Positions 2,211-58,237 of a DNA stretch of 64,000 bases are shown piece after piece. The position numbers and the translations under genes are program-made. A model generated the notes under the pieces. The model saw only the letters and a program-made list of their open reading frames with translations, ran no database searches and was not told where the DNA came from. This DNA comes from Buddleja alternifolia. Its lineage: Eukaryota > Streptophyta > Magnoliopsida > Lamiales > Scrophulariaceae. Each line of letters begins with the position of its first letter. The stretch's first letter is position 1. The stretch lies in assembly GCA_019426215.1 (NCBI GenBank), contig CM033392.1, positions 35,198,814-35,262,813 of the forward strand, given 5' to 3'.

Positions 2211-3640
2211 ATTTATTTTTGATAAAGTCAATAAAATTTGTGGCTGTAAAATGAGAAATAATTATGACTAAAAAGATTTTAAAGCTCAATGACAGAAATA
2301 TGAAATTTTAAAATTGAGGCCATATTCTCAAATTCAATGACATTTTCGTTTTTTTCCCTTTAAAGGGAAAAAGAAATAAGAAGTGGATATTCCTTTTGTC
2401 ATAACTCCAGTTATGCTCGTTATCAAAATGACCAGATAAATACCCCCACGCCTTATTGGGTTATGATCACCGCACACCACTTGTGCTATAGAATAAAGGG
2501 GAATGATATTGGCACTCCATAAATTATTTTAGAAGCTCCCAAGTTTAAATTTTATATTAAAATATGACAATAATGTTCATGGAGTCTAATTATTATGTAC
2601 CTTAAAATTGAGTTACACGACTATTTTTATGTATCAAAATAAATTATTATATTCTCTTAAATATTTTATTACATATCAAATAACAAGTACATAAGTTAAA
2701 AACTGAATAGTTTTAAAATTTTATGGAATCCTAAAAGAAAGGTAAAGGAAAATTTATAGCATCATTAACAATATAATGCATGTAGCATATTAAATTCAAA
2801 AATGACAGTCGAACTTGAAAAAATCAGTTCATTTGGATTGTATATAAACACCAAACTATCACCTTTATATAACTTGTTATAGTAGACAATTTACTAGAAT
2901 ACGTTTTAGTCATTTATAAATGCTCAAATAAATTGCTCAAAAAGAAGGAAAAAAAATCGTTAGAAGTATATAATAATTTCTCAATTTGCATTCAAAGAGA
3001 CAAACTATTTATTGATTAGAATAAGAATTTACAATTTATGGCGCTCCAATATCAATCCCCTAGAATAAATATCTTATCTTAATTCACAACCAGCATAAAG
3101 CCAAGTTTGAAACTGATCCGTATTTAAAAATTCTTATAAGTTTACCAATAGACCGACTCCTTGAGGGGTGAGTTAGTAATCTTCAGTAAGTAATGAGAGT
3201 TGGTAATTACACAATACGTGAGGGATATATAAAATGAAAAATCAAATAAAAATAGAAGAAATGAAGTGTGCATTAAATGCAGACGGAACAAACGTGTCTG
3301 AGAGTGGAATTCAGCACTGGAAAATGAAGCAATTATCGTAATTTTCTTGTGCTGGTGCAAAAATGAAGATCAAATTCAGAGTGAACTTGCTTGATTGATA
3401 GCTGATGATAGGAGATCAATAAAACCAAGTCCTGGAAATAAGTAAAATCAGAAACTTAAGAACTAACCATAATTGTCGAGTCAGAGCAATTAAAAGATTT
3501 GCTTTGAACCCTCATCTTTCAACATACATACATTTTAACTTGGCACTTTAAAAACAGAGCAATTCACAATTATGAATCATGTGACGTAGCTGATGATGAT
3601 GCAGATGAGACATTCTATAAAAGGGCCTTACAACTACAAA
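1..3640. other. AT-rich intergenic DNA, no gene seen
   Basis: No open frame on either strand reads like a known protein; the few short frames (60-90 codons) have random composition. The stretch holds homopolymer and dinucleotide runs and a phrase at 1130-1260 rich in GAGCTCGA/AGCTCGAT words that recurs loosely at 5850-6010, so part is probably old dispersed repeat. I see no LTR end, PBS or tRNA. The right end (about 3640-3811) is the expected 3' untranslated region and downstream flank of the X8 gene on the minus strand. Confidence 0.6.
2175..2208. repeat. (TA)n microsatellite
   Basis: An uninterrupted TA run of about 34 bases directly visible in the sequence, followed by a T-rich stretch. 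Confidence 0.9.
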
Positions 3641-3811
3641 CGAAATCAAGTTAAAAAACAGACGTCGTGAAGAAATATCTATATAATATTTTCATTGATA
3701 AATCCAATAACCACTGATTACATATGAGAGTACATCTCCTCCCTCTACCAAAAAAGCCTTTGCTTTTGCGACATAACATACAAAAATGTGATTTGCACTC
3801 AATCAAACAAC

Positions 3812-5308
3812 TTACAAGATTAGTAGTAAGACTGCAAAGAGGAGATGAATCGTAATTGAAATCCAATCCCCATGGCGAGACGAAATTGAATTATTACTCT
3901 TCAGATCTGCACTATCTGTCACTGTCACGGGCCCATTCAAGTTGGCGTTGCCTGAGCTTATGCTGCTGCATCACCAGTTTAAACAACTCCAACATCACCA
4001 TTTCTGAAGCTAACATTCAACCAGACCCGTGGGAGGAACAATTTATGCATTGAGCTACGGCCCTAATGTGAGTTCTTTCAAATTTATTTACCCAATCATA
4101 GGTAGTGGCAGGCTAACCTTTAAAGAGGGCGGAGCTCCTGAAGAAAGCATGATGGCTTCTTCAGCACTGATATACTTAGTCTTCCCAGTGTCAATCTTCT
4201 TTTCCCACTTAATAGAACCCTTCCTTGATTACTTCAGCAATTTTCATCCTTCCTTGTTACTGGTCTATACTTAGATTCACAATCTCCGCAAATCCAGTCA
4301 TCACGAGCCTCCTCCATAAGGATTCTCATACAATACCTGAAGGATTAACCAATTACGTGTGAAGGGTAAACTATTAAGAAAACTCAAGGAAGGATTTGAG
4401 TTTACCCCATAATTGGTTAATCCTTCGGTTATTGTTTGAGAATCCTTCTTGAGGTTCTTGAGGAAGTTCGTGATGACTGGATTTGCAGAGATTGTGAATC
4501 TAAATATAGACCAATATTAAGGAAGGGAATGAATCAAGGGAGGATTCTATTACTTGGGAAAAGAAGGTTGACACTTGAAAGACTAAGTATATGAGTGCAA
4601 AAGAAGAGATCATGGTTTCTGCAGGAGCCCAGAAAGCTCCGTCCTCTTTAAAGGATAGCCTCCCACTACCTATGATTGGGTAAATAAATTAGAGAGAATT
4701 CGTATTATGGCCGTTAGCTGATTATTTAAATTAGGCTATTACAAACCAATGACACTCGTACTCCTATTTACACATACTTAACCAGACCAGACCACTATTT
4801 TCTACATCCAACACATATTGAAATTGATGTGTAAATATATATTTACCTGGATGGAAATTTGCAACCATCGTGACCTGAAAAAACAAATAAAACAACAATA
4901 AATTAGTAATTATGTAATGTAAGTAGTATTTAAGAAGAGTGAAATTGTTGAGTTGAGTGACTTACTGGGGTTGAGAGAAGTGAGAGCAGCAGTGTTGGCA
5001 AAATTACAGTTATCATCGGAGGGGCCATGTTTGTGGTAGTAATCATTGAACGCATACGACGCCGTACGCTGGAGGTCCGACCCGTCGTAGCACGGCCCGC
5101 CGTTCTGAATGGGCCCACAGTCAGCCCCGCCGGCCCCACATGTCCAATCGAGTGCAGACTCAAGTGCCGCGTCCTCGGCGTTGTTCTTAGCCACGCACCA
5201 TAGTTCCCTCGCCGGCCCCCCTCCGCTGCCGCCTTGGGCGGCGGCAACGGCGAACACGAGTGAAAAGACCAAGAAGAACAAAGGGAGGGCCCCTGACAAG
5301 ATTCCCAT
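3812..5308 (-). CDS. X8/CBM43-domain protein, putative GPI-anchored plasmodesmal callose-binding protein (PDCB-like)
   Basis: Three exons fit canonical GT-AG rules: 5308-4966, a 28-nt micro-exon 4874-4847, and 3965-3812. Together they give a 174-residue protein. Residues 1-24 are a signal peptide ending in VAAA. Residues 37-124 are an X8 domain: WCVAKNNA start, the six expected cysteines (38, 57, 64, 73, 101, 119) and the motifs GPIQNGGPCY and SYAFNDYY. The micro-exon supplies the terminal HDGCKFPS, which is how X8 domains normally end. Exon 3 gives a Ser/Asn-rich linker and a hydrophobic C-terminal tail (ISITIHLLFAVLLLIL), the usual layout of a GPI signal. X8 proteins bind beta-1,3-glucan; PDCB members act at the plasmodesmal cell wall. 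The exon 2 and 3 joins are inferred from splice signals, phase and protein logic. Without them the frame runs on 18 codons into intron 1. Intron 2 (881 bp) holds the PHD foldback. It could instead be an Ole e 10-like family member. Confidence 0.88.
4090..4327 (-). pseudogene. Decayed PHD-finger gene fragment, arm 1
   Basis: Read on the minus strand, the frame starting near 4327 gives RDDWICGDCESKYRP, the W-x-C-x-x-C end of a PHD zinc finger followed by the usual basic stretch. After a stop and a frame change it continues with KWEKKIDTGKTKYISAEEAI and MLSSG, which resembles the segment following the finger in plant PHD proteins as I recall that family. Only the last Cys pair of the finger is present and there is no start or splice context of its own. 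It is on the same strand as the X8 gene but lies in its intron. Confidence 0.65.
4450..4650 (+). pseudogene. Decayed PHD-finger gene fragment, arm 2 (inverted copy)
   Basis: The plus strand reads LEVLEEVRDDWICRDCESKY and then RPILRKG, the same PHD C-terminal CxxC region as arm 1, in opposite orientation. It then runs into frameshifts relative to the KWEKKIDTGKTKY part seen in arm 1. Different indels in the two arms show that the duplication is old or that the arms diverged after inversion. Not a functional gene. Confidence 0.62.
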
Positions 5309-5411
5309 TATTCAATTCACTGTAGAAAAAGAGAGAGAAATGAAAAATGAAGTGTGGAAAGTCGATGAGTGGTAAGAAAATGTGTGTATTAAAATACTTT
5401 TTACATCATTT

Positions 5412-5420
5412 TGCGGGTTT

Positions 5421-5436
<16 letters not shown>
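5412..5436 (-). promoter_or_regulatory. TATA-like element of the X8 gene
   Basis: On the minus strand a TATATATATAAAACCC run lies about 105-125 bp upstream of the X8 ATG, followed by a pyrimidine-rich leader (CTCTCTCTTTTTC). It abuts a GT microsatellite, so TATA-repeat length may vary between alleles. Assignment rests on position only. Confidence 0.45.

Positions 5437-5471
<35 letters not shown>
5430..5471. repeat. (GT)n microsatellite in the X8 promoter
   Basis: About 19 uninterrupted GT units adjoin the TA run. It also marks the left limit of the duplicated block A; the inverted copy ends in a matching CA run at 13672-13690. Confidence 0.92.
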
Positions 5472-5473
<2 letters not shown>

Positions 5474-6872
5474 GAAATGAAATGCGACCGTTGGGTTGGG
5501 GGGGGGGTAAATTTCACGGTGAACTGACCAGCCAAGACGAAGCAGAGATCTGAGTTGTGCAGCGTTACCGTGTTTAGAACTTTGATAAGGGGAGGGTAAA
5601 TTTCACAAAATCTGTAACCCCAAAACTCGCCCTCAATGTCCTCATCCACTTCCACTCAACTATTGAAAATTTGCTATTGGCCACATGAAATTAAACTATG
5701 GCAATTGAGACCTACTTCATTGGATTGGAAGGCCAACAAAGTTACTTGACACTCAACGTCATATCAATCACTAAAATTTCGTATGATCTGGGTTACTTAA
5801 TATATCAAATTAAATTTAAACATGATTTTATAATCAATATGTTCTAATCTCGCCTCGAGCTCAACTTAAATAGTAAAAAAATATATATAAAAATATGCAC
5901 TAAAGAAAAAGTCAAAACAACCAAATTACTTGACTCCAATTCGTATTCAACTCATTTGAGATCATTTCGATCAACGAACTAATCAAGCTCGATCACAATT
6001 TTAAATCTCGATAATAATTCATGAAAGTTTGAACAATAATTTGTTTTGCTCAACTTTTTATTTACATTTTAGTGGAATACTTGATATCACGCATCTGCAT
6101 ATCAGGGAGTGCTGAAATTTGATTGTTCTTTTGATGTTATCTTAACACAGTTGCACAATATTTGGCTTATCGTATTTAAAAAAAATGGAAAATTTACACA
6201 CAAACCCCCTAATTTATTCTGTAATTATCAAAACTTCCTCTCACTTATTGAAAATTATTAACACACCCTCTTATGTTAAGGATTTCTAACAATTACACCA
6301 TTTGTAGATTTAACACTTTTTACAATTTTACCATTGTAAACCTTACAAATAGACCCATTGAAAGGATGTGTTGGTAATTTCTAATAAATGAAGGAGAATT
6401 TTGGTTATTACTTAATAAGTGAGGGGTCTGTGTGTAATTTTCCCTAAAAAAATTGACATGAATCAGAAGGACGTTAAAAGGTAACATAACAAGTTTTAGA
6501 GGTTTCCGTGTAACTGTGCATATGTGCAAGCTCATATTTTAAGATCTTTTTTAGGCACTTTTACCCAATGCCAAATATTTAATGCATTAAGAATTATAAC
6601 TGGTAATACTATAAATTTTAAAATCTTAAATATTCTACAAATCTTATTTTCTATATTCACAATTTTTTTTTTCAAAATATTACTCTTAAAAAAAATAATT
6701 TCCAAACTAGTATTATTTAAAAAATATTTCAAATATTATTATTTTTAGAGCCACATGTATTTCCATGTGTACAAAAACTTATTTTTTTAATTCAAGATGA
6801 AGGGGGATACCCTAAATATCCAGCCCAACAAACCCGGGTCATAATTTTGAGCCACAGACTCTACTAGTTCCA
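5450..6872. repeat. Block A: upstream flank of the X8 gene, present again inverted at 12320-13690
   Basis: Reading 12320-13690 on the reverse strand reproduces this stretch with scattered substitutions and small indels. Landmarks: GGGCGAGTTTTGGGGTTACA, TTGGCCTTCCAATCCAATGA and CACACCCTCTTATGTTAAGG or their complements. Homology begins in the GT microsatellite and stops inside the SINE near 6872. No coding potential beyond random frames; AT-rich intergenic sequence with possible promoter elements of the X8 gene at its left end. Confidence 0.9.
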
Positions 6873-6990: not shown

Positions 6991-7714
6991 AAGAATTGAT
7001 AACGATACTTCACATTTTGTTAGAGGCACTCCATTTTCATTAAACTTTCACCACGTAGACAAAAATGCCCTTTAGTCTATAAAAGTAATTTTTATCATTT
7101 TACTTGATAAACTAGTTTTATACCACTTTTTTAACTAAATGTAGAATAAGTAATCAAAATTTGATAGTTCATAATTTTAAAATGATAGATAACTACAGTA
7201 AATAATAAGTAAAAACAAAAAAAAATGTAGATATGAGTAAAACTGTAACTTATTTATTTAGAACCAAATTAGGGTAAATGTTATTTTATTTTGGATAAAA
7301 TTGATAATTATTTTTTCATTAAAGTTTTTAGAAAAATTAACTATTATCCTAGGTGGACATATTGAGTTCAACAAGACTAACTTAGTTTAATATGATCTGA
7401 TGATTTTTTTTCTTTTTAGTGTTTTTTAGGCCTTTGATGTTATATTAATTTTTAATATTCAAAAAATATAATTTTTAAATTATTATGGAGCTAATGAGCG
7501 AAACATATCATTTAACGAGTTCAATAAAATCATATCAAGGTTTGAATATTCATGGTAAGATGATTAGTCTTATTGCATTCAAGAAAAGTAGGGTTTTTTA
7601 TTTCTAAAAAGATGCTTGAGAAAAAACGTCATTTTATTTGGTATTACTTTCACAAAAAAGAATTAAAAAATATTTTTCAAAGTTTATGTAGAAGGGATTA
7701 TTCGGTTCATCCAA

Positions 7715-7915
7715 GGCTTGTTAGTCTGGTGGTATCAGTTTTCACTTTCATGTGTGAGGTTATGGGTTCAATGTCAAGCTGTCACAAGTTGTGATTTTTC
7801 TCCCTTATTTGGAGTCTTATAGAGTCTGTGTGACCGATACTTAAAAAACTATTAGCTCGGGTTTGTCGGGTCAGAGTTATCACCTTTCGTCTAGAATTTT
7901 TTTTTTTTTTTTTAA
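7715..7915 (+). mobile_element. tRNA-derived SINE (second subfamily)
   Basis: Box A-like TTAGTCTGGTGGTATCAG and box B-like GGGTTCAATGTC lie about 40 bp apart, followed by GTCACAAGTTGTG, GAGTCTGTGTGA and a GGGTTTGTCGGGTCAGAG body. It ends in TTCGTCTAGAAT plus a run of T. The layout matches the SINE at 6770-6990. I did not find a convincing target-site duplication. It is copied at 28520-28735 as part of block C2. Confidence 0.65.
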
Positions 7916-9555
7916 AAAGAATTCTATACGATACATTGAGGGGCATCATAGTCAACTTAGTTAATTTAAAAAGGATGTGGAGTGCCTTTATCAACTCTCA
8001 AACTTGTTTAGTTGGAAATTAGGTTCCCCTACTTTAATGGCCTCCATGGATACTAGTTATAATTTTTTTAATTTTGTTTTATCTTTATCCCTCTCCAAAT
8101 ATTCAATTTCTTTTGCATTATCTATTGCTTTCTCTTGTATATGGCACCAATTTCTAACTATTTATAATAATTAACATAAAATCGTATGTAAAATGTATGT
8201 TTGTATAATTTCAAACACCACATGTAGAATTGAGAAATTTTCATATTAAAGAATAAATAATAAATGAATTTAGTATTCTGATTTGTAAAGTTTAAGGAAT
8301 TAAGTGCACACATCGAGTATGCCACTATGACTAGTTAGTATAAAGTTATAAACACAAGTTTTCTTAATTGATTTACAAACTATAATACTAATGCTATACA
8401 GAAAAAAAAAATTTAAGCATAATGGTCGCATTGGTGCTTATGTTTTTGTTTTCTTAATTTTAATAAAATTAGAGTTTTTTTTTTCGGGGGAGGGGGGGGT
8501 TTGTTATTTTCCAACATCTCTCTCTCTCTCTCTAATCTTCTTCTTAAAAATATGTCCCCAATTCATTTCTTACTATCAATTTTTCTATTATGTTTGTTAA
8601 CAGTCTCTGGTATTCAAATTTTTGCTCTGAAAATGCACCATCGGTATTTCGATCCGGCCAAGTAGTGGTATTGTCGTACCATAATAATTTCCCAGGAGTG
8701 GTCCACCTGTACCGATAAACTCGATGCATCTGCCTAATTCTTTAAAATTTCTAAATTAGAGTAATTAATTCATTTATGATTTTTGTAAAATAAAAATTCT
8801 CAATATTATATGTGCTTGAAATTATGCAAACATAAATTTGAAGGGAATGTTACTTATAGTCCCTAAACTATTACGTTTGTCTCACTTACGTCCTTAAACT
8901 CAAGTTTATTACACTACAGTCCCCAAAGTAATAATTTATCTTACCTTAGCTCGTACCCTCAATAATTCTTTTACTGCTAGACTAGAACTAATGACTATGG
9001 AGAAATGGAAAAATGGGTAGGATTATTTTATCAGAGAGCTCTAATGCAGAGAAGTAGAAAGAAGATGAAAATTATGCCAAAGCATACGGAGGGGGGCAAC
9101 GTGCGATGGGGTTTAGTTTGCACCACGTACTATAGCGCCTATTACTAGAAAATTCTTTCCCTAGCAGTCTTCTATTTTTTTTTCACAATCCAAACCCCAA
9201 ATCGATTAATTAATTAGTCCACTAAGTAAATAATTAATTTTGCCTTAATTTATATAGCAAATTAAATTACAAGACCAAATTTTAGTTACTCACAACTTAA
9301 TTAATAAAATATTTTTTCAATTAATTAATTCATCAAGAATTAATTTCACCAACCAAGGTATTACACACTAGGTTAAGTGTGTGGCCCTTTAAGCTTAGTA
9401 GCGTGCTAGTAATAGGTCTTATCCCCAAAAGGCCGACCAATACCAAATTGTCTTAATTAATTATTTAATCAAATAATGATTAGGCCTTGAATTAATTCAC
9501 CATAATAATTTCAGACACATATTTGTCATGGTTCCATGTCTAGCAATGTCACCAT

Positions 9556-11340
9556 TGTTAGGTGTTATGCTCTCTATGCCATTGAGGAATTAGATTTAAG
9601 AGGGCGTTTTATTTAATTGTATGAACATTATTATTGGTTAATAAAATCCATTGAGTTTGTTCTTATAAATCTAATAGTGGCATTGAATGTATTGAACAAA
9701 CTAGGTCCTTAAGATCGAGGTGTACTCAGCACTGCATATTTGATAAGTAGGAGCACTGGTGGAGTTAAGTGCTTGATCTTATAAAGACGGTTCGCGAGTC
9801 AAAGAATCTAAATTAGGCGTTTAGATTCGACTCGTATGACACTTGCTTTGACAAGGAAAGTACTAAGTCTTACACTGATTAGATAGTGGGAGCTGATGTC
9901 ATAAATATGGTTAACGGAGTTAACATATTTAAACTCGACTCGTTATAATCCTATCACATGGGTTTTTACTCAGTGACAGTCAATGAGGAGGATTACCGTT
10001 ATAATAGTATGAGTGAACTTTAGACTTGAGGAGTGATTTACATTGTGCTCGTACCATTGAATGAGTTATTAGAGTAGTTAGGCCCAATCACCTTGTTGGT
10101 GGGGTCGACCTCGAAGTATAATACAATTGGTGTGTTCGACAATGGGAAATGGACTGCCAATAGGGGATTCACTGTCTCGAAAGTAAATGAGAAGCAACCT
10201 GTACGTCATAGGTGTTGTGAAATTAAAGTCTTTGGCCAAAACATTAATGACTGACTTATAATGGATATGAAGGGCAGTTTGGTAATTTCACATCAGTATG
10301 ATTTATTAAGTACAGTATCAAGTTTTACGAGTTTGACGTTCCATGACTCTTACTTGATCGGGTTGCGTCAGTGAAGAGTTTATACTCATATGGTATTTAT
10401 AACATAAAGGTTCGTGATGAAATAGTCATCTCGTACTTGATTGAGTTTCGGTATAGCTTCACGGGATGGTTTGGTGATAACTATATCCTTGGAATCCTCC
10501 CAATGTCAATCAAGACTAGCCTAGAGAGTCGCGCTATGTAAAGATGATATATAAATGAGTTTTACTTATTGAAGGGTATTTTGGTAATTTCACTTGGAGT
10601 GAAAATTATCAAAAGGGATAAGTATTGATTATAATAAATATATTTAATTATTGTAATTAAATTATTTCATTCAATCAATATTAATAGTATGGTATTATTA
10701 ATTTAGAAGTAATAAAGTACTATTAATAAAAAGATAATAATATTTAATTGATTACCAATTGGATTGGACTGATAATATTATTTAAATATTTAACACTGGG
10801 CTTGGAGTAAGAAAAAGTCCAGTACTCCTATCCCTAGGGTAGGATCGGCCGCCCCCTCATCTCCTTGAATCAAGGAGTAGCTTTTTATTTAAGCACAAGG
10901 TGTTTAACTAAAATCATAACTCAAGTCAATTTTTCATCTTAGAGAGTGAAAAAGAGTAAAACACAAATCCTTCTCCTTCCACATAAACCCTAAGGCACCC
11001 AACCCATTCTGAGGTAGAGGAAGTCGAGCTTCAAGATTGAAGGTCATCTTTCGCGTGATTATCTAGAGGAAGGAACGATCCGTTGCTTCTCATCAAAAAG
11101 GCTAGGCTTTTTTGGTTATCATTGAAAAAGGTAATTAGATTCCCACCTATTCTTGATATCTTTTTGTGATTACGAAATTATCAAAAACTTGAATTGAATC
11201 CGGGCTATATGAATCAATTAAAAATTTTTATCGCTGGTTCGATTCACAATAGTCATGACTACCTATACATTAATGATAATATCATACATATCTTGATTGT
11301 GATCTTCGCTTGCGTCGAATCCCTACATTATATTCTCGTC
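9556..11340 (+). mobile_element. Copia-type LTR fragment (LTR-like, plus orientation)
   Basis: It starts TGTTAGGTGTTATGCTCTCTATGCC, close in form to the start of the element 2 LTR (TGTTAG, then GCCCTC and ATGCC). It shares with that LTR a run of short phrases such as TTAGAGTAGTTAGGCCCAATCACC, GTCGACCTCGAAGTATAAT, GAATTCACTGTCTCG-like text and GAGAGTCGCGC. No gag-pol follows, so it is a solo or truncated LTR; the 3' end is uncertain. C2 holds the same start at 30375. Confidence 0.6.
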
Positions 11341-11399
11341 TGAGTTTAGAGTCAGGGTACTAATTGAACCTATAATAACTCGACTGCATTGGAACTCTA

Positions 11400-12125
11400 A
11401 TGACCTTGATCTACCAAGTAGGGACCACCAAAACTCTCTTGAAGACATTGCTTTGGCCAGAGACTTTCTCGGTCATTTAGGTTACCCAACAGTATAGGAA
11501 AGTTTCAAGTAACCTACCTTGGATGGATCTCTTGTTGGTTTCATTTGCTTCATTGTACAACCGGACTACACCTAAAATATTCGATTTTGAGATTCTCATG
11601 GAACCATGGAATAGATCAAAGTGTAATGGGTTGCACACGTTGCAACCATGACATCTTAGGTCGTTGAGGATTAACCCCACACCTATGCAATCCTAGGATT
11701 CATAGTTCGACATGGAACCAACATGGAATCCTTTAATGTAGTTGTTCAATCCCATACTTTCCAAATACGGATCTTTATGCATGCACTGATCCTAAATCAT
11801 CGTCCATGGAACTAGGTACTCTTCCATGAGAATGTCATATACAAACAAGTCTTAATGAGACTGTGATACCCTTTTATCTCGCAGTCTCTATAACTTGGAA
11901 AGGGGTTTTAAGACCACAGACATCAAGAATACTCCACAGTACCCACCCCTTGTGCACGACCACTCCCAAGCCATAAGTTGATCCACGTGAACTTTATCTA
12001 AACTAATAAAAACGTAAAAGATAAAGAAACAAGTCAATATGTTTTATGGATAAAATTGAAGCCAAGACTATCATAGGTTTACAACCTAAAGTGAAGACAC
12101 TAGATGGCTCGTCGGACACCTAACA
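11400..12125 (-). mobile_element. Copia-type LTR fragment (reverse orientation)
   Basis: Read from 12125 on the minus strand it begins TGTTAGGTGTCCGACGAGCC, a TG start typical of copia LTRs, followed by AT-rich sequence and GGAAAGGGGTATCACAG-like text. It is a different family from the LTR at 9556. The inner end is not defined. The same sequence appears in C2 (about 31430-32178). Confidence 0.45.
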
Positions 12126-13949: not shown

Positions 13950-15518
13950 TGTTAGGAATTTCATGTTAGATGTTTTGATGATGACAATTAGGATTTTATG
14001 TTAGACCCCAAAATATCTAAGTTTGATTTTAGTAGAAATCTTGTATAAGCTCCGAAGCGTTAGAATTGTAATAGGCTTTATAAGCTTTAACTCATTTCTG
14101 TTCTAGATTGTTAGGCTAAGTACTTTTAGACTGAGCGTCTGATAATTTTTGAGTGTGCTTATCAGTAGTTAAGTTTGAAGACTCAAGCGCCTGAAGTCTG
14201 AATGGAGATGAAGATTCCAAGCGTCTAAATGACCAGCTATATCAAGCGTCACTTATAGGACAGAAGTAATTCAAAAATGAATGAGCGTCTATCAAATGAC
14301 TGATTTTACCAGAATTTATTTCTAAGTCCAGAAGGAGTTTAAAGCAAATATTCACAGTGCATTAAATGCCAACGGGCATTTAATTCAAATGCATTAAATG
14401 TTGATAAGAGCATTAAATGTGATAAGATCTTTCGGACGTACGGAGAAGCCACCCTATTGGACTGTCAACTATTCACAGACTGCAGCACCAACTTTTGTGC
14501 AGCAGATTTTCAGGAAAAATGATAAAATCTGTTGACTCGCGGAAGTGAGACACACGCGCCTGTGCATGTGCCAAACGGACACTTTTTCCAAGAATGCCTA
14601 TAAATAGGACTTCAACAACAAGTCAAAACATCGATCAATTCCAAGCCAAATTGTTGTTGCATTGAAGTCTCATTCCTTAAACTCTCAGAAAAGCCAGAAT
14701 ATTCAAGAAAACATTCTCTTTGCTTTTCTTCAATTCCTGAGACAATCAACCAATATGTCAAACATTCTTTTCGAAGAAACCTACATTACTATTGAGATAT
14801 TTTCAGTTGTTTGAACTTCATCAAAATCAAACAAACCGTGTAGAAAAACCCCATCCAAGCCTCGCGATCTGTGTGAAGTCGAAGTTGGATACTTGCATTA
14901 TTTTTGGGTGAAAGAAGCAAGGGGATTGAAGTGATTTGGAGCAGAAATCTGTGTGATCAAGGATCTCAAGTCATCGACATCCATCTCTTCCTAATTTGTA
15001 GAAGTTCTGTATGATTCCTTGAGAATCATTTTAGTGGATTGCCTCCAAGTGTTCAAAGAGAAGAAGGACGTAGTTGGGATTACACTACCCAACGAACCTC
15101 ACAATTATTGTGTTATTTACTTTGCAGTTAATTTTCTTATTATCATATCATTGCATAAATTGATTAAGTAAAACACAATCAAACGCTAAGCAACTAAAAT
15201 ACTTTCTGTGACGCTAAAGCTTTGAGAGAGGAAGACTCCAAAATCATTTCGCTGTGCTAACATTGATCAAAGAAATGAACGCTTAAACCTATTTGGTTAA
15301 AGTATTCAAATCTTAAAGTCTAAGTTAACTTTCTAAAATAGTCTTCATTAGACGCTCAGCCGAAGCGTCTATATTTCAAGTAAACGCTTAGTCAAGCGTC
15401 TACATTTCAAGCGTCCAAAACTATTTTAATACGAATCTTTTTGAAGTCAAAGAAGACTTTAGGGTCTATTCAACCCCCCCCCCTTCTAGACCATTTCGTA
15501 TGCCACTTAGAACGAACA
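13950..15518 (+). repeat. 5' LTR of element 1
   Basis: Length 1569 bp, TG start and GAACA end. Contains a C homopolymer at 15474-15483 and nine AGCGTC/GACGCT hexamers by hand count. TATAAATAGGA at about 14600 is a likely TATA box, giving U3/R/U5 order. Compared with the 3' LTR, differences are mostly C/T and G/A exchanges at CpG sites plus small indels. Confidence 0.92.
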
Positions 15519-26317: not shown

Positions 26318-27840
26318 TGTTAGGAATTTCATGTTAGATGTTTTGATGATGACAATTAGGATTTTATGTTAGACCCCAAAATATATAAGTTTGATTTTAG
26401 TAGAAATCTTGTATAAGCTTTGAAGTGTTAGACTTGTAATAGGCTTTAATTCATTTTTGTTCTAGATTGTTAGGCTAAGTACTCTTAGACTGAGCGTCTA
26501 ATAATTTCTGAGTGAGCTTATCATTTGTTAAGTTTGAAGACTCAAGCACCTGAAGTCTGAATGAAGATGAAGATTCCTGGCATCTAAATGACCAGCTATA
26601 TCAAGCGTCACTTATAGGACAGAAGTAATTCAAAAATGAATGAGCGTCTATCAACGATTGATTTCACCTGAATTTATTTCTAAGTCCAGAAAGAGTTTAA
26701 TGCAAATATTCTCAGTGCATTAAGTGCCAACGGACATTTAATTCAAATGCATTAAATGCTGATAAGAGCATTAAATGTGATAAGCTCTTTCGGATGTACG
26801 GAGAAGCCACCCTATTGGACTGTCAACTATTCACAGACTGCAGCACCAACTTTTGTGCAGCAGATTTTCAGGAAAAAGGACAAAAGTTGTTCACTCGCGA
26901 AAGTGAGAGATACGGGCCTGTGCATGTGTCAAACAAACACTTTTTCTAAGAATGCCTATAAATAGGACTTCAACAACAAGCCAAAACATCGATCAATTCC
27001 AAGACAAATTGTTGTTGCATTGAAGTCTCATTCCTTAAACTCTCAGAAAAGCCAGAATATTCAAGAAAACATTCTCTTTGCTTTTCTTTAATTCCTGAGA
27101 CAATCAACTAATATCTCAAACATTCTTTTCGAAGAAACTTACATTACTATTGAGATATTTCCAGTTGTTTGAACTTCATCAAAATCAAACAAACCGTTTA
27201 GAAAAACCCCATCCAAGCCTCACGATCTGTCTGAAGTCAAAGTTGGATACTTGCATTATTTCTGGGTGAAAGAAGCAAGGGGGTTGAAGTGATTTGGAGC
27301 AGAAATCTATGTGATCAAGGAGCTCAAGTCATCGACATCCATCTCTCCCTAATTTGTGGATTGCCTACAAGTTTTCAAAGAGAAGAAGGACGTAGTTGGG
27401 AGTACACCACCCAAACCTTACAATTATTGTGTTATTTACTTTACAGTCAATATTCTTATTATCATATCATTGCATAAATTGATTAAGTAAAACACAATCA
27501 AACGCTAAGAAACTAAAATAGTTTCTGTGACGCTAAAGCTTTGAAAAAGGAAGACTCCAAAATCATTCTGCTGTGCTAACACTGATCAAAGAACTGAACG
27601 CTTAAACCTATTTGGTTAAAGTATTCAAATCTTAAAGTCTAAGTTAACTTTCTAAAACAGTCTTTATTAGACGCTCAGCCGAAGCGTCTATATTTAAAGT
27701 AAACGCTTAGTCAAGCGTCTACATTTCAAGTGTCCAAAACCATTTTAATACGAATCTTTTTGAAGTCAAATAAGACGCCAGGGTCTATTCAAGCCCCCCC
27801 CCCCCCTCTCGACCCTTTCGTATGCCACTTGGGACCAACA
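26318..27840 (+). repeat. 3' LTR of element 1
   Basis: 1523 bp, same start as the 5' LTR and ending GGGACCAACA. Has a longer C run (27794-27806) than the 5' LTR and a ~45-bp gap near 27355 relative to it. Seven AGCGTC/GACGCT hexamers remain; at least two further sites have become C-to-T variants (AAGTGTCC, GGCATCT). Confidence 0.92.
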
Positions 27841-27930: not shown

Positions 27931-28519
27931 AAACTAGTTTTATACCACTTTTCTAACTAAATGTATGAATAAGTAATCAAAATTTGATAGTTCATAATTT
28001 TAAAATTTTAAAATGACAGATAACTACAGTAAATAATAAGTAAAAACAAAAAAACAATTGTAGATATGACTAAAACTTTTACTTATTTATTTAGAACCAA
28101 ATTAGGGTAAATGTTATTTTATTTTGGATAAAATTGATAATTATTTTTCATTAAAATTTTTAGAAAAATTAACTATTATCCTAGGTGGACATATTGAGTT
28201 CAACAAGACTAACTTAGTTTAATATGAAGTGCTTGATTTTTTTTCCTTTTAGTGTTTTTTAGGCCTTTGATGTTATATTAATTTTCAATATTCAAAATAA
28301 TAATTTTTAAATTATTATGGAGCTAATGAGCGAAACATATCATTTAAAATCATATCAAGGTTTGAATATTCATGGTAAGATGATTAGTCTTATTGCATTG
28401 ATGAAAAGTAGGGCCTTTAATTTCTAAAAAGATGCTTGAGAAAAAACGTCATTTTATTTGGTATTACTTTCACAAAAAAGAATTAAAAATCATTTTTCAA
28501 AGTTTATGTAGAAGGAATT

Positions 28520-28735
28520 ATTCGGTTCACCCAAGGCTTGTTAGTCTGGTGATATCAGTTTCCACTTTCATGTTTGAGGTCCTGAGTTCAATGTCAGGCT
28601 GTCACAAGTTGTGATTTTTCTCCCTTATTTGGAGTCTTAGAGTCTGTGTGATCGATGCTTAAAAAACTATTAGCTCAGGTTTGTCGGGTCAGAGTTATCA
28701 ACCTTCGTCTAGATTTTTTTTTTTTTTGAAAAAAA
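28520..28735 (+). mobile_element. tRNA-derived SINE, copy in C2
   Basis: Same element as 7715-7915: TTAGTCTGGTGATATCAG box A-like, GAGTTCAATGTC box B-like, ACAAGTTGTG, GAGTCTGTGTGA and a T-run tail at 28706-28720. Confidence 0.62.
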
Positions 28736-30374
28736 GAATTCTATATGATACATCGAGGGGGCATCATAGTCAACTTAGTTAATTTAAAAAGGATGTGGAG
28801 TGCCTTTATCAACTCTCAAACTTGTTTAGTTAGAAATTAGGTTCCCCTACTTTAATGGCCTCCGTAGATACTAGTTATAATTTTTCTAATTTTGTTTTAT
28901 CTTTATCCCTCTCCAAATATTCAATTTCTTTTGCATTATCTATTGTTTTCTCTTTTATATGGCACCAATTTCTAACTATTTATAATAATTAACTTAAAAT
29001 CATAAGTAAAATGTATGTTTGCATAATTTCAAACACCACATGTAGAATTGAGAAATTTTCATATTAAAGAATATATAATAAATGAATTTAGTATTGTCAT
29101 TTGTAAAGTTTAAGGAATTAAGTGCACACATCGAGTATGCCACTATGACTAGTTAGTATAAAGTTATAAACACAAGTTTTCTTAATTGATTTACAAACTA
29201 TAATACTAATGCAATACAGAAAAAAATAATTTAAGCATAATGGTCGCATTGGTGTTATGTTTTTGTTTTCTTAATTTTAATAAAATTAGAGTTTATTTTT
29301 TTTTTGGGGGGAGGGGGCGTTGTTATTTTCCAACATCTCTCTCTCTCTCTCTCTCTAATTTTCTTCTCAAAAATACGTCCCCAATTCATTTTCTTACAAT
29401 CAATTTTTCTATTATGGTTGTTAACAGTCTCTGGTATTCAAATTTTTGCTCTGAAAATGCACCATCGGTATTTCGATCCGGCCAAGTAGTGGTCTTGTCG
29501 AACCAGAATAATTTCCCAGGAGTGGTCCACCTGTACCGACACACTAGATGCATCTGCCTAATTCTTTAAAATTTCTAAATTAGAGTAATTAATTCATTTA
29601 TGATTTTTGTAAAATAAAAATTCTCAATATTATATATGCTTGAAATTATGCAAACATAAATTTTAGGGGAATGTTACTTATAGTCCCTAAACTATTACGT
29701 TTGTCTCACTTACGTCCTTAAACTCAAGTTTATTACACTACAGTCCCCAAAGTAATAATTTCTCTCACCTTAGCTCGTACCCTCAATAATTCTTTTATTG
29801 CTAGACTAGAACTAATGATTATGGAGATATGGAAAAATGGGTAGGATAATTTTATCAGAGAGCTCTAATGCAGAGAAGTAGAAAGAAGATGAAAATTATG
29901 CCAAAGCATACGGAGGGGAACAACGTGTGATGGGGTCTTATAACCCTAGTTTGCACCGCCTACTATTACTAGAAAATTCTTTCCCTAGCAGTCTTCTATT
30001 TTTTTTCACAGTCCAAACCCCAAATTGATTATTTAATTAGTCCACTAAGTAAATAATTAATTTTGCCTTAATTTATTTAGCAAATTAAATTACAAGGCCA
30101 ACTTTTTGTTAGTCACAACTTAATTAATAAAATATTTTTTCAATTAATTAATTCATCAAGAATTAATTTCACCAACCAAGGTACTACACACTAAGTTAAG
30201 TGTGTGGCCCTTTAGGTTTAGTAGCGTGTTCCTATTAGGTCTTATCCACAAGAGGCCGACCAATACCAAATTGTCTTAATTAATTATTTAATCAAATAAT
30301 GATTAGGCCTTGAATTAATTCACCATAATAATTTCAGACACATATTTGTCATGGTTCCATGTCTAGCAATGTCA

Positions 30375-32178
30375 CCATTGTTAGGTGTTATGCCCTCTAT
30401 GCCATTGAGGAATTAGATTTAAGAGGGCGTTTTATTTATATTGTATGAACATTATTATTGGTTAATAAAAGTTATTGAGTTTGTTCTTATAAATCTAATA
30501 GTGGCATTGAATGAATTGAACAAACTAGGTCCTTAAGATCGAGGTGTACTCAACATTGCATATTTGATAAGTAGGAGCACTGGTGGAGTCAAAGAATCTA
30601 AGTTGGGCGTTTAGATTCGACTCGTATGACACTTGCTTTGACAAGGAAAGTACTAAGTCTTACACTGATTAGATAGTGCGAGGTGATGTCATAAATATGG
30701 TTAACGGAGTTTAACATATTTAAACTCGACTCGTTATAATCCTATCACATGGGTTTTTACTCAGTGACAGTCAATGAGGAGGATTACCGTTATAATAGTA
30801 TGAGTGAACTTTAGACTTGAGGAGTGATTTACATTGTGCTCGTACCATTGAATGAGTTATTAGAGTAGTTAGGCCCAATCACCCTGTTGGTGGGGTTGAC
30901 CTCGAAGTATAATTCAATTGGTGCGTTCGACAATGGGAAATGGACTGCCAATAGGGGATTCACTGTCTCGAAAATAACTCAAGTTAATTTTTCATCTTAG
31001 AGAGTGAAAAAGAGTAAAACACAAATCCTTCTCCTTCCACATAAACCCTAAGGCGCCCAGCCCATTCTGAGGTAGAGGAAGTCGAACTTCAAGATTGAAG
31101 GTCATCTTTTGCGTGATTATCTAGAAGAAGGAACGATCCGTTGCTTCTCATAAAAAAGGCTAGGTTTTTTTGGTTATCATCGAAAAAGGTAATTAGATTA
31201 CCACCTATTCTTGATATCTTTTTGTGATTACGAAATTATCAAAAACTTGAATTGAATCCGAGCTATATGAATCAATTAAAATTTTTTATCGCTGGTTCGA
31301 TTCACAATAGCCATGACTACCTATACATTAATGATAATATCAAACATATCTTGATTGTGATCTTCGCTTGCGTCGAATCCCTACATTATTTTCTCGTCTG
31401 AGTTTAGAGTTAGGGTACTAATTGAACATATAATAACTCGACTGCATTGGAACTCTAATGACCTTGTCTACCAAGTAGGGACCACCAAAAATCTCTTGAA
31501 GGCATTGCTCTGGCCAGTTACTTTCTCGGTCATTTTGGTTACCCAACAGTATAGGAAAGTTTCAAGTAACCTACCTTGGATGGATCTCTTGTTGGTTTCA
31601 TATGCTTCATTGTACAACCGGACTACACCTAAAATATTCGATTTTGAGATTCTCATGGAACCATGGAATAGATCAAAGTGTAATGGGTTGCACACGTTGC
31701 AACCATGACATCTTAGGTCGTTGAGGATTAACCCCACACCTATGCAATCCTAGGATTCATAGTTCGACATGGAACCAACATGGAATCCTTTAATGTAGTT
31801 GTTCAATCCCATACTTTCCAAATACGGATCTTTATGCATGCACTGATCCTAAATCATCGTCCATGGAACTAGGTACTCTTCCATGAGAATGTCATATACA
31901 AACAAGTCTTAATGAGACTGTGATACCCTTTTATCTCGAAGTCTCTATGACTTGGAAAGGGGTTTTAAGACCACAGACATCAAGAATATTCCACAGTACC
32001 CACCCCTTGTGCACGACCGCTCCCAAGCCATAAGTTGATCCACGTGAACTTTATCTAAACTAATAAAACCGTAAAAGATAAAGAAACAAGTCAATATGTT
32101 TTATGGATAAAATTGAAGCTAAGACTATCATAGGTTTACAACCTAAAGTGAAGACACTAGATGGCTCATCAGACACCT
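30375..32178. mobile_element. LTR-like fragments in C2 (forward start at 30375, reverse start at 32178)
   Basis: Counterparts of the C1 fragments: a plus-strand copia LTR start TGTTAGGTGTTATGCCCTC at 30375 and a minus-strand LTR start TGTTAGGTGTCTGATGAGCC at 32178. Internal coding sequence is absent from both. Confidence 0.5.
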
Positions 32179-34994: not shown

Positions 34995-36643
34995 TGTTAG
35001 AATATACGCCCTCAAATGCCATAAAGATGATAGATTTATAGGGTGTTGACTTGTAACTAAACAATATCTTTTAGTAATATAAGGCATTATTTTGTTGTTT
35101 TCTTATAGGCATTTGTAAGGTTTTAATAAACAATGTAAAGTCCTTGATAATAAGGCAAACCTTCTACTTCGTATGGGTTAGGAAGAATGACACTAGAAAT
35201 GTTTGATCCTTATTATCTAAAAATTGTTCGCAAGTCGAAGAGAGTATTGACTGGACATCAATACTAGATAAAGACTTGGATGATATAAGTTTTGACAGAG
35301 AAAGTGCTAGTCAATCACTATGGGAATGGTAGTGGAAACTTATGACATAGACATATCAGTTAGACTGATATGTTCGAACACGACTCCCATCGGTTTCATC
35401 ACATGGCTTTCACTCACTCACAGTCAATGATGAAACTGATAAGTTGTGATAGGCACGCTTGAACCTTAGACCTGAGGAATCAAGTTGAAGATGTACTTGT
35501 GACATCAAGTCTGTTATTAGAGTAGTTAGATCCAATTCACCCTTTGGTGGGATCGACCGTGAAGTGCAACTTGATGGGCAAGTAGCAGTTTTAACTGATT
35601 AGCAAACTGAGATTTATTCTCTCATAAGTGGATGAGCTAAATATCCTATGCAGTCATGAATGAGTGAGGTTAAAAGACTTTGGCCAAAGCATAAAGAGAT
35701 ACTCATGTTAGACATGAAGGTACACTCATAGACCTCTATTCATTATGAGCTAAGCATATGGTCAAGTCCTGTGAGTTGACTGAACCATGACTCTCACTTG
35801 ACTCGGATATATAAATAAAAGATTTATACTCGTACAGTATTCACAGCGTAAAAGGTTTCGAATGATCCTAATTATGCGTTCTGAATTGGGGTACGATGTG
35901 AGCCATGAGTCTAGGTAGGTGTTACTCACATCCTCTTGGTTTCCTCCCAATTGCCTTTTGAGACGAACCTAAAGAGTCGCGCTTAAAGAAATTGCAAAAG
36001 GAAAAACCATGGAATAGACTTGAGAGAATTTTTCGGTATTGGATATCGAAATTAATTAATTAATTAATCATTAGATGATTTTATTAATTAATTAAGTTAA
36101 TGAATTAATTAATTAATTTCTTAGAGAAAATTAATTATAGAATTAACATAGATTTAATTAGTTATTTAATTAATTAATTTATTGGATAAATAATATTAAT
36201 TATTTAATTAATTAAACAAACAAACATGGACTAAAGCCCAAAGGCTTTCTAAAGCCTAAATTGCGCGTCAACATGAGGGTTAAAGAAGCCTAGGGTTATT
36301 ATTTCCTAGTGTAGTATAAATATACTACTTAGTGAAAATAATAACAAGTCTCCTACATTAACTTTCTCTCCAAGTCAAGAAGTCTTCCAACTCTCTCTCT
36401 CTCCTAGCCGATTTCAAGGAAAGAAAAGAAGAGGATTTTTCGCTTTGATTTCCGGCGGGGCAATTTAGAGACAGTGACGATTTTACTATTCAAGAAAGGA
36501 TTAAGAAAGCTGGTTCAGAATTCAACATACGCGAAGAAAGGTACATGAATTCGAAACACAATTTGAATATGTGAAATCGAGATGAACCACTTGGGCTTTT
36601 CAATTTCATCTTCCGCAGCGTTTTTATGCATTAAAACCCAATA
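34995..36643 (+). repeat. 5' LTR of element 2
   Basis: 1649 bp. Contains dense TTAATTAATTAA runs (36050-36220), a TATA-like TATAAATATACT at 36316 and the phrase CGTTTTTATGCATTAAAACC at its end. Shares about 90% or more with the 3' LTR by eye; the 3' copy lacks ~60 bp near 42965 (GAGTCTAGGTAGGTGTTACTC region). Confidence 0.92.
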
Positions 36644-42047: not shown

Positions 42048-43627
42048 TGTTAGAGTGTATGCCCTCAAATTCCATAAACAGGATAGATTTATAGGGCATT
42101 GACTTGTAACTAAACAATATCTTTTAGTAATATAAGGCATTATTTTGTTGTTTTCTTATAAGCATTTGTTAGGTTTTAATAAACAACGTAAAGTCCTTGA
42201 TAATAAGGCAAACCTTCTACTTCCTATGAGTTAGGAAGAATGGCACTAGAAAAGTTTGATACTTATTATCTAAAAATTGTTCGCAAGTCGAAGAGAGTAT
42301 TGACTGGACATCAATACTGGATAAAGACTTGTATGATGTAAGTTTTGACAGAGAAAGTGCTTGTCAATCACTATAGGGATGGTAGTGGAAACCTATGCCA
42401 TAGACATCTCAGTTAGACTGATATGTTCGAACACGACTCGCATCGGTTTCATCGCATTGGTTTTCACTCACCGACATTCAATGATGAAACTGATAAGTTG
42501 TGATAGGTACGCATGAACCTTAGACCTGAGGAATCAAGTTGAAGATGTACTTGTGACATCAAGTCTATCATTAGAGTAGTTAGATCCAATTCACCTTTTG
42601 GTGGGATCGACCTCGAAGTACGACTTGATGGGCAAGTAGCAGTCTTAACTGATTAGCAAAATGGGATTTATTCTCTCATAAGTGGATGAGCTAAATATCT
42701 TATGCAGTCATGAATGAGTGAGGTTAAAAGACTTTGGCCAAAGCATAAAGAGATACTCATGTTAGACATGAAGGTATACTCATAGACCTCGATTCATTAT
42801 GAACTAAGCATATGGTCAAGTCCTGTGAGTTTGACTGAACCATAACTCTCACTTGACTGGGATATATGAATAAAAGGTTTATACTCGTACGGTATTCACA
42901 GCGTAAAAGGTTTGGAATGATCCTAATTATTCATTCTCAATTGGGGTACGATGTGAGCCACGGGTCGCGCTTAAAGGAATTGCAAAAGGAAAAATCATGG
43001 AATAGACTTGAGAGAATTTTTCGGTATTGGATATCGAAATTAATTAATTAATTAATCATTAGATGATTTTAGTAATTAATCAAGTTAATAAATTAATTAA
43101 TTAATTTTTGTGAGAAAATTAATTATAGAATTAACATAGATTTAATTAGTTATTTAATTTATTTATTTATTGGATAAATAATATTAATTATTTAATTAAT
43201 TAAACAAACAAACATGAACTAAAGCCTGAAGGCTTTCTAAAGCCTAAAGTGGGCGTCCATATTAAAGAAGCCTAGGGTTATTATTTCCTAGTGTAGTATA
43301 AATATACTAATTAGTGGAAATAATAATAAGTCTCCTACATTAACTTTCTCTCCAAGTCAAGAAGTCTTCCAACTCTCTCTCTCTTCCCTAACCGATTTCA
43401 AGGAAAGAAAAGAAGAGGATTTTTCGCTTTGATTTTCGGCATGACAATTTAGAGACATTGTTGATTTTACTGTTCAAGAAAGGATCAAGAAAGCTAGTTC
43501 AGAATTCAACATACCCGAAGAATGGTACATGAATTCGAAACACATTTTGAATATGTGAAATCGAGATGAACCACTTGGGCTTTTCAATTTTATCTTCCGC
43601 TGCGTTTTTATGCATTAAAACCCAACA
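42048..43627 (+). repeat. 3' LTR of element 2
   Basis: 1580 bp, starts TGTTAGAGTGTATGCCCTC and ends AAAACCCAACA. Colinear with 34995-36643. Confidence 0.92.
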
Positions 43628-44432: not shown

Positions 44433-45723
44433 TAACATGGTAGAACTCCATGTCATTACAGCAAGAGGACTGATCGTGTGTAGTAACAATTATGTCCAGG
44501 ATGACGAACCCACAGAGATTTGTATTTTAGTTCTATGAGGAGTAACGCAAGTATAAATCGACTTTTTAAAAACAAAAAAAATATATAATTACCTAGAACT
44601 TAATTATAATAATAAGAACAATAGTGATAAAAGCGATTAAGACTCATACGTCAATAAAGATTTACTCGTCCCATATATGATTGTTATTTCATAAGTTACT
44701 AGACTATGATGCTATAGTGGAAAATTCCTTAAGATTATTATCACGCGGATCCCCCGCTCATGATAACCTATACTAAATTGGTTGTATCAATCTCTACTGC
44801 ATGCATTAAACACTAGAATTTCTCCCAAGTTTATTCATATTTATCCCTTTGAATGAACCTGGCTAACAGCATCCGGAGTATGTAGCTATCCCTAGAATTA
44901 ACTGACTTAGAAGATATTATGATTTCCTCTTCACCCTAATTTACTTTCTCCCGAACAGATAAATTGGGCAATAATTCAACACATGGTAGCTAATCATATG
45001 AAGATGACAAAAGCACAAAAATCACAATACATAGCAATCATAGAATTAACTTAAATCAAACAACTATCATATATTATTCAAGATCAATCCGACCTTTCTA
45101 TGATCTTAATCTAAGAAATTAGTTCATAACTATAAAAGAAAATATACAAAGAAAAGGATAAATATTCATAAACAAAAATCTATCTAGATCTAAGAAACTC
45201 CCTTGTATAGAAGATGATCTTCTTCCTTCTTGTTCTTAAAAACTATGTAATCTTGATCAAAAGTAACCAAAAATAAAGTAACTAAAACCTAACCCTAACT
45301 AAACTAACGTGTATTTTCCACCTACTTAAAAATTGCTTTTCTTCTGCTCTTACATCTTGTATTTATAAGTGTAGTATTGGAAAAGTCGTTTTAGGCTTAG
45401 AATTGGAAATTTCCAAACTGTTCTGGCGACATCAACGTTCGAACATCACACCTCCTGGCGGCCGTGCGTAAAATCTTTTCAGTTGGTGCGTTGTTCTTCC
45501 AAGAGTTCGAACGTTAAGCAACTCTACGTTCGAACGTTAGGCTCTGCTTCTTCGATTTTCCGTTGAATACGTACATTACTCCTTTATTTTCCTCAATTGT
45601 GATAATTTATACCTGAATTCAAATATCAAACTCATTACATGCATTTGTGGCATAAATTACTCATAATCGAGCTAAAACTATATGAAATCATGGGATCAGA
45701 TTACGTAAATCTCATCCCTATCA
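44433..45723 (-). repeat. 3' LTR of the gypsy-type element (LTR-L)
   Basis: About 1290 bp; on the plus strand runs from TAACATGGTAGAACTCC to CTCATCCCTATCA. Contains GTTCGAACGTT-type palindromes at 45439, 45509 and 45530. Closely matches LTR-M. Confidence 0.85.
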
Positions 45724-46921
45724 ACACCCCCAAACTTAAACATTGATCATCCTCGAGCAATGACAATCATAGACATAAAATCACAACTTCGAACAAAAAG
45801 AAATTAGAACAAAAGAAAAAAGAAGGATAAACTCACTTTTGTGGAGTAAACGATTACATTTAGGCTTTTTATGGGACCTATATATCAAGCTTTAGATCAA
45901 TGACTTCCAAACTAGATAGTTTTAGGGCATTAAGTGTAGAGACACTCCTAAAGATTTAATCACTCGAGTGTCAAAAGCCACGAAATAAAACTAGATCTTT
46001 CCAACAATTAAACTTTCTTTTGGCTTCAGCTTAGTTCAAATTAGCATAATAATATAGTATGTAGGCATGTGACTTTCACCTCCAATACATATTAGCCTTA
46101 CCTCTTTTGTCATACCAAAATTTAACCTTATTCCATTATTTAGCATACAAAATTAACTAATCAACTTATAACCTTATGAAAAATCTAAGTCAATATTTCC
46201 GGAAAAAATTCATTAAGTGTCTCAAGATGGTTATCCAGCTCAACTCCTCTACCCTCGACTTATATGCATTGTGAATCATCTAAGGAAATCAATTCTCATC
46301 TGGGGTCTCCACGAGCAATTTCAAAGATATATATGTTCCATTAAATTCAAATTATTCATAGAATTCATGTCATTTTTTCAAGTTAATCAATTTCAATGCA
46401 TCACTTAGAAGGACTAAACATTTTTCATATTAGATTTTCTCAACATAAAAGCATTTATCTCAAAAATTTCAAAAATTGACACTCCTCCCCCAAACTTAAT
46501 TTACAACACATCACTTGTATTCTTTGATACTTTCCTACCCCCAAACTTAACTCTAACATTGTCCCCAATGTTGCACAAGCTAACACATGAAAATGTAAAA
46601 ATATAAAAAAGAAAAGAAAAATACTACTGATTAGGATGATGAAAAACAAACCTAAATTCCTCATGCGTATTTTTTTGTGTAAATTCATTGAAAAAGCACG
46701 TATTCCAATATCGTTCCACTCCAGCAATTTAAAGAGATAACTACTAATCATCACAAAGCTCAAACAAGCATCAAAATATCCAACATAACCAACAAAATAA
46801 GAAAAACATAACAAAATATCCATAAATTCAAAAATAAATAAACAAAATATAAAACTAATAAAAGTAAAATCTAACATCCATCAAAAGAAAATTAAACAGA
46901 TAACAAAATTCTAGGCTGTCA
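45724..46921 (-). other. 3' non-coding part of the gypsy-type internal region
   Basis: Holds the PPT beside LTR-L and two further PPT-like copies (CTCCCCCAAACTTAA at about 46487 and CTACCCCCAAACTTAAC at about 46535). No coding signal. Relative to 52911-53520 it lacks about 470 bp near 45855. Confidence 0.65.
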
Positions 46922-51990: not shown

Positions 51991-52433
51991 ACACGCCCTA
52001 AACTTAAACATTGATCATCCTCGAGCAATGACAATAATAGACATAGGATCACAACTTCGAACAAAAACAAAAAGGTTAAACTCACTTTCGTGGAGTAAAC
52101 GATTACACTTAGCATGTGTAACAAGCCTTTAAACGTTTATGCTACCTAAAAAGGACGAGTTATAGTCTCATGAGGGTTTGCAGATGATATATCCACAAAA
52201 TCCAACAAATTTCAGACCCAACCAATCAATACAAATCAACATAATTAACATGAACCAATGGCACAAAATCATTCCTTTAAAGCTCAAAAATATATATGCA
52301 TATCAAATAATTTTGCTCATGTGACACCAATACTCGAAAAGACTCCAAAGGGTGTAGTGAAAATAAATCGAAGGCATTATACTCGAGAGACATCCTTACT
52401 AATTTTTGGACGTTATAGTTGAGAGGCATCCAT
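51991..52433 (-). mobile_element. Internal 3' fragment of a second gypsy-type unit
   Basis: Matches 52911-53350 (GCATGTGTAACAAGCCTTTAAA, GACGAGT-ATAGCTC-TGAGGGTTTG, GTGACACCAATACTCGAAAAG). Runs from PPT-like sequence to a break inside the next partial LTR. Confidence 0.7.
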
Positions 52434-58224: not shown

Positions 58225-58225
58225 A

Positions 58226-58237
58226 GGTATCAGAGCC
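58226..58237 (+). promoter_or_regulatory. Primer-binding site of element 3
   Basis: GGTATCAGAGCC directly follows the hairpin-bearing LTR end, matching the tRNA-iMet PBS apart from the first base. Confidence 0.82.

Follow-up and report, generated by a model that had tools for sequence, protein, structure and literature searches.

Intronic hairpins that give rise to siRNAs are known as sirtrons, with siRNAs that direct methylation of the host gene, and such hairpins were reportedly found in rice by Chen et al. in 2011 (cited in PMC5260113). For MIRNA genes an origin by inverted duplication was proposed in the model of Allen et al. (PMC3237417), and a study covering 48 non-conserved families in Arabidopsis reports evidence of inverted duplication for 16 MIRNA loci; the parental gene set is the best target for only seven of these 16 gene-derived loci (PMC1790633). 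Inverted repeats regarded as proto-miRNAs have also been described, in a report that speaks of little evidence for substantial changes in expression through their siRNAs (PMC13128112). Hairpins with gene targets are described as working in teosinte, with the Tpd1 hairpin (PMC11390486), and in Arabidopsis, with the S-locus precursors (PMC13128112), and long inverted repeats of rice are presented as probable sRNA precursors (PMC7649420).

The locus considered here lies within a stretch of 64,000 nucleotides of DNA from Buddleja alternifolia, of the Scrophulariaceae in the Lamiales (the window). It illustrates the inverted-duplication model with unusual completeness, having an intact donor, an unspliced fragment, symmetric ends and an intact host. 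We are close to certain that it arose from an unspliced fragment of an AIPP2-like gene, placed head-to-head in intron 2 of a PDCB5-like gene, and we regard as probable the larger structural and evolutionary account in which the hairpin is also a potential source of siRNAs. The locus does not appear in the titles and opening lines of abstracts among the papers listed on Buddleja small RNAs or on the B. alternifolia chromosome genome.

The palindrome and its host gene

The palindrome spans approximately positions 4040-4733 of the window and consists of two ~340-nt arms that face each other across a loop of ~8 nt, with boundaries taken from a reading of the sequence and from alignments and uncertain over the outermost ~10 nt. 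The features of the locus are as follows, where C2 is the contig carrying the putative donor gene.

3812-3965, minus strand: exon 3 of the PDCB5-like X8 gene (coding part), encoding the hydrophobic C-terminal tail (gene model)
3966-4846, minus strand: X8 gene intron 2, 881 nt, host of the palindrome (gene model)
4040-4387, minus strand: left arm, AIPP2-like fragment, sense in the X8 pre-mRNA, 86% identical to C2:48738258-48738614
4118-4336, minus strand: captured PHD exon (parent exon 3) of the left arm, 219 nt, with its AG acceptor and its GT donor intact, phase-matched to X8 exon 2
4388-4395, no strand: inter-arm loop, ~8 nt, read from the sequence
4396-4733, plus strand: right arm, copy of the AIPP2-like fragment that in the X8 pre-mRNA lies antisense to the PHD mRNA, 82% identical to C2:48738267-48738581
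4429-4653, plus strand: captured PHD exon of the right arm, neither splice site retained (AG to GG, GT to GA), from the alignment with coordinates read from the sequence
4847-4874, minus strand: PDCB5-like X8 gene, exon 2, 28 nt, ending ...HDGCKFPS (gene model, GT-AG borders)
4966-5308, minus strand: coding exon 1 of the PDCB5-like X8 gene, with the signal peptide and the X8 domain (Pfam X8 E 8e-20; gene model)

The initial annotation had placed a hairpin with ~315-bp arms at 4057-4712, and the inverted repeat is real, although its edges lie slightly wider than was claimed. Positions 4057-4355 pair with 4410-4714 in four ungapped segments, with complementarities of 84, 89, 88 and 89%, and the two arms are 87% identical in a trimmed alignment (80% when untrimmed). 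Folding the plus strand of 4040-4730 as RNA, as the annotation had proposed, yields a strong hairpin of -408 kcal/mol, where 20 shuffled sequences average -170 (z -37), and the minus strand of the entire X8 intron 2 reaches -445 kcal/mol (z -30). The X8-strand fold of 696 nt contains 283 pairs with a longest uninterrupted helix of 49 bp, and the loop can be closed by pairing of its flanks, AAACTCAA (4380-4387) and TTGAGTTT (4396-4403). The arms are thus inverted and fold back stably, in the manner of an inverted-duplication (proto-)MIRNA or hp-siRNA locus, and a typical miRNA foldback is shorter than these ~340-nt arms. Translations bear out that the same PHD tail is present head-to-head in the two arms, in opposite orientation (DDWICGDCESKY in the left and DDWICRDCESKY in the right).

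The host gene lies on the minus strand and is intact as a 174-aa PDCB5-like model with three coding exons. These occupy 5308-4966, 4874-4847 and 3965-3812, and the palindrome therefore lies inside intron 2, between X8 exons 2 and 3 as initially proposed. The X8 domain is confirmed by Pfam (PF07983, E 8e-20), the model is 70% identical to a Paulownia protein across 99% of its length, and its matches in many plants are named plasmodesmata callose-binding protein 5. The short exon 2 has a counterpart, SHNNCKFPSS, in orthologues such as that of Paulownia. There are 71 X8 matches in the genome, the best of which outside the host gene is 55% identical. The palindrome takes up most of the intron and is wholly contained in it (4040-4733 in 3966-4846), as the whole hairpin is in a sirtron; a mirtron was rejected because the hairpin ends are not at the splice sites, which are about 113 and 74 nt away. 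Upstream of the X8 start codon there is a TA/TG microsatellite at window positions 5420-5475.

The rest of the window contains other repeats. At 57891-58226, inverted repeats that are 81-93% complementary overlap in a compact cluster; the motif CATGCGCAGCGGAAGAGAAAA recurs there, and several alternative stems could form. Long direct-repeat pairs among the families listed include 7525-11709 with 28345-31766, 14060-15394 with 26419-27713, 34995-36641 with 42048-43625, and 44486-45734 with 50745-52001, which are 87-98% identical per piece (best 20 of 21 families). These look like LTR pairs of retroelements, with one perhaps nested in another.

The probable donor gene and the origin of the arms

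We searched a genome of 853.6 Mb in 429 contigs, in which the palindrome locus is on contig C3. A genome-wide DNA search returned at least six matches at a minimum of three places, namely the locus itself, C2 and C7, and a protein search with the PHD part returned eight matches, again to the locus itself, C2 and C7. The initial annotation had supposed an intact PHD parent elsewhere in the genome, and one was found on C2, an AIPP2-like gene of the chromatin-reader type. This donor candidate is intact in a gene model built by hand from splice consensus, where 11 coding pieces join into an open frame of 573 aa. Its protein contains a SPOC_AIPP2 domain (Pfam E 1.8e-38, 132 bits against a cut-off of 28.1) and a PHD finger that scores just below the cut-off (PF00628, 23.4 bits against 24.0; PF25054, 23 against 29.8). 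It has 59 homologues at E 0.001, the best named of which are Lamiales AIPP2-like proteins, 36-58% identical. The three arm peptides gave sub-threshold DUF4428 matches for two and nothing for the third in Pfam, and weak matches at best (E 0.19 or worse) in the PDB, so that the PHD assignment of the arms is made through the domain matches of the C2 parent. The relative on C7 corresponds to a deposited Buddleja protein (Bualt07), which matches it at 93-100% in eight pieces. In Arabidopsis, AIPP2 and PAIPP2 are described as members of a BAH-PHD-CPL2 complex, with repression linked to H3K27me3 (PMC7718874).

Two other properties of these regions were observed. At C2:48736361-48737692, the AIPP2-like parent has three similar tandem exons of 123, 132 and 135 nt, and a GC-AG intron comes after every one of them, a pattern that suggests an internal exon triplication. 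X8-domain matches are found at C2:48749639-48749875 and C7:15701387-15701626, ~11 kb and ~75 kb from the respective AIPP2-like PHD exons, a hint that C2 and C7 may hold duplicated segments.

Each arm starts from the end of a parent intron, continues through the PHD exon and takes in most of the 89-nt intron that follows. The exon measures 229 nt in the C2 parent (C2:48738334-48738562), as against 219 nt in the left arm. The similarity of both arms to this one protein-coding gene, seen in the genome search and the alignment, extends beyond a 21-nt site, and the inverted duplication of a PHD-gene fragment is borne out by the genome matches and the arm-parent alignment. Because parent intron sequence flanks the exon on both sides, the arms are an unspliced, DNA-level copy, and an origin as a retrocopy is ruled out. 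The inner and outer ends are common to both arms in donor coordinates, and a single palindrome-forming event is therefore likely. We propose that a genomic, unspliced ~340-bp piece of the AIPP2-like gene underwent head-to-head duplication and entered PDCB5 intron 2 of Buddleja alternifolia as a single palindrome, presumably after the C2 parent and the C7 relative had split.

The timing is suggested by the divergence of the copies. Synonymous divergence (dS) is 0.229 between parent and left arm and 0.251 between parent and right arm (70 codons each), or 0.255 and 0.274 on the 65 codons common to all three, and it is 0.51 between the C2 and C7 genes (282 codons); the event is thus younger than the C2/C7 split if the C2 gene is the donor. 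In the trimmed alignment (columns 48-372), K80 distances are 0.114 for parent and left arm, 0.147 for parent and right arm and 0.143 for the two arms. At the 292 gap-free sites, 240 are invariant, 15 have left-only and 21 right-only changes (P 0.41), two differ in all three sequences, and at 14 the arms agree with each other against the parent; untrimmed counts (21 left-only, 40 right-only, 18 arms-shared) included poorly aligned ends. Because of the 14 arms-shared sites, the true donor could be an unseen or lost close paralogue of the C2 gene. Some arm states, such as EKK where the parent has EKM, also occur in several other Lamiales proteins, so that part of the arm-parent difference probably arose in the parent.

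The arms look like neutrally drifting non-coding DNA, although the numbers of changes are small. Between left and right arms dN/dS is 1.06 on the 65 codons usable in all three sequences, again with small numbers, and the values of 0.36 for parent and left arm (Fisher P 0.051) and 0.43 for parent and right arm (P 0.063) are only marginally below 1. On the same codons, the lineage-specific synonymous and non-synonymous changes number 6 and 5 in the parent, 3 and 6 in the left arm and 2 and 11 in the right arm; pooling of the arm lineages gives 5 and 17, as expected without constraint. Frame-breaking indels are found in left and right arms alike. Changes of the C>T type account for three of eight transitions in the left arm, seven of nine in the right arm and, for the parent, five of 11, with similar CpG counts (4, 4 and 5); methylation decay was set aside, a C>T-type excess not being clear. 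The arms have drifted, to the K80 of 0.143 given above, but a strong stem is retained.

Silencing potential and alternative readings

PDCB5 pre-mRNAs that span intron 2 would carry a ~340-bp hairpin, with a 5' arm antisense to the parent mRNA. That 5' arm is the right arm, which is antisense to the PHD mRNA, and the match of the X8-strand hairpin to a PHD gene, an element of the initial annotation, holds in that this arm is complementary to the parent mRNA. The arm that better matches the donor, the left, is sense in the X8 transcript; its perfect runs to the C2 gene are 35, 24, 24 and 23 nt long, and those of the right arm 33 and 18 nt. It had also been proposed that the parent be examined as a predicted target. 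With a simplified complementarity scoring rule, 84 of the 332 antisense 21-mers of the X8 strand score 4 or less against three parent exons and 39 score 2.5 or less, the best at 1.0 and none of the 332 perfectly complementary, and each of five target shuffles gave 0 at 4 or less. When the C7 relative is taken as target through pieces of its coding sequence, 15 of the 332 score 4 or less and five score 2.5 or less.

Other sequence signs of a working silencing locus are weak or absent. A conserved 21-nt block is not clear, the longest perfect arm-arm run being 28 nt (P 0.06), and in 3500-5500 every Rfam match stays below the gathering score of its family. A known miRNA was considered and rejected: the matches to SCARNA7 and MIR172, which at 22.6 and 19 bits fall far short of gathering scores of 65 and 70, were treated as chance. 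The best reading is that of an inverted-duplication hairpin, in the intron of an intact X8 gene model, at a proto-MIRNA or hp-siRNA stage and with no sign of selection. The intron, excised or unspliced, would be a potential Dicer-like substrate from which mixed hairpin siRNAs could be produced, and these might act weakly on the AIPP2-like gene. Silencing by the hairpin is plausible, with complementarity as its one positive sign in the sequence. Detectable siRNAs in some tissue have a chance that we place a little short of even, and a measurable repression of the AIPP2-like parent is unlikely. In the most far-reaching version, PDCB5 intron 2 would be a trans-acting hairpin, with siRNAs that lower an AIPP2-like histone reader whenever PDCB5 is transcribed, and the captured exon could in addition serve PDCB5 as a different 3' coding end; this we hold to be very unlikely, and if true, cell-to-cell connectivity would be tied to chromatin repression.

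There are several other ways in which the locus could be read. The palindrome may be an inert intron relic, quickly spliced out, with no meaningful small RNA and in neutral decay, a reading that leaves anatomy and origin unchanged and that we regard as evenly balanced. It draws on the left-right dN/dS near 1, the 5 synonymous and 17 non-synonymous arm changes, the indels that break the frame in both arms, and the lack of both a clearly kept 21-nt block and an Rfam family at gathering score in 3500-5500. However, neutral drift would be equally expected of a young hairpin siRNA locus, and the stem still holds 283 pairs over 696 nt, with an unbroken helix of 49 bp. Stem siRNAs might instead act only in cis, directing DNA methylation to PDCB5 intron 2 rather than repressing the AIPP2-like gene, since they would match their own locus perfectly and the parent only at ~87-90%, and 65 (42%) of rice intronic miRNAs are reported as able to target their own host gene (PMC3661559). 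The right arm does lean to C>T-type changes, in seven of nine transitions, but the left arm does not (three of eight) and CpG counts are alike (4, 4 and 5), and we consider an effect confined to cis a minority possibility. The palindromic shape also recalls a MITE, foldback element or Pack-MULE that captured a PHD fragment, and hairpins of this kind are documented to come from transposable elements (PMC3237417). However, the matches in the 854-Mb genome, with counts that are lower bounds, are the locus itself, C2 and C7, with no further copy, the arms end in intron sequence of the PHD gene rather than in transposon termini, and no target-site duplication was seen by eye at the palindrome borders; transposon candidates were rejected on all three grounds, and we regard such an origin as extremely unlikely.

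A final reading concerns the coding sequence of the host. The left-arm PHD exon could act as a cassette exon trap, spliced into PDCB5 to give a 157-aa form with the hydrophobic tail replaced by the PHD tail. The left arm keeps both splice sites (4336-4118) where the right-arm exon lost both of its own, and the junction with X8 exon 2 is in the PHD frame (...CKFPSRYCMRILMEEARDDWICGDC...). Moreover, a deposited 261-aa protein, BUALT_Bualt03G0189600, does contain hairpin-derived sequence. The first 115 residues of this protein match 5308-4964 at 100%, an exon at 4499-4337 reads antisense PHD, loop and intron sequence as coding, an exon at 4219-4092 is the sense PHD tail, and the C-terminal tail of the 174-aa model is missing. 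These exon borders differ from those of the captured exon and resemble an ab initio model, the stem would sequester the splice sites, and we consider inclusion of the exon improbable. The deposited protein is probably a mis-annotation, an ab initio artefact of the hairpin, and it illustrates how such insertions may corrupt gene models. Its last exon, near 3429-3388 in a model that spans 3388-5308 on the minus strand, is dubious.

Relation to described systems

The Buddleja parent resembles Arabidopsis AIPP2 and PAIPP2 as they are described (PMC7718874) in having an N-terminal PHD-like finger together with a SPOC_AIPP2 domain, a likeness that is one of domains, with the PHD finger at 23.4 bits against the Pfam cut-off of 24.0. 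Like the Tpd1 hairpin (PMC11390486) and the S-locus precursors (PMC13128112), the palindrome is an inverted-repeat hairpin with protein-coding homology, although small RNAs and effects are reported as demonstrated for those systems, and the Buddleja hairpin is a candidate identified from its sequence. With the rice intronic siRNA hairpins and intronic miRNAs (PMC3661559) it shares a location in the intron of a protein-coding gene, but it derives from another gene, whose donor copy is intact. With the inverted-duplication MIRNA and proto-MIRNA loci as reported (PMC3237417, PMC1790633) it shares arms that are similar to a gene beyond 21 nt, a short loop and a retained parent, and it differs from them in its ~340-nt arms and its position inside the intron of an unrelated gene. 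The Buddleja palindrome thus belongs to the known class of inverted-duplication hairpins.
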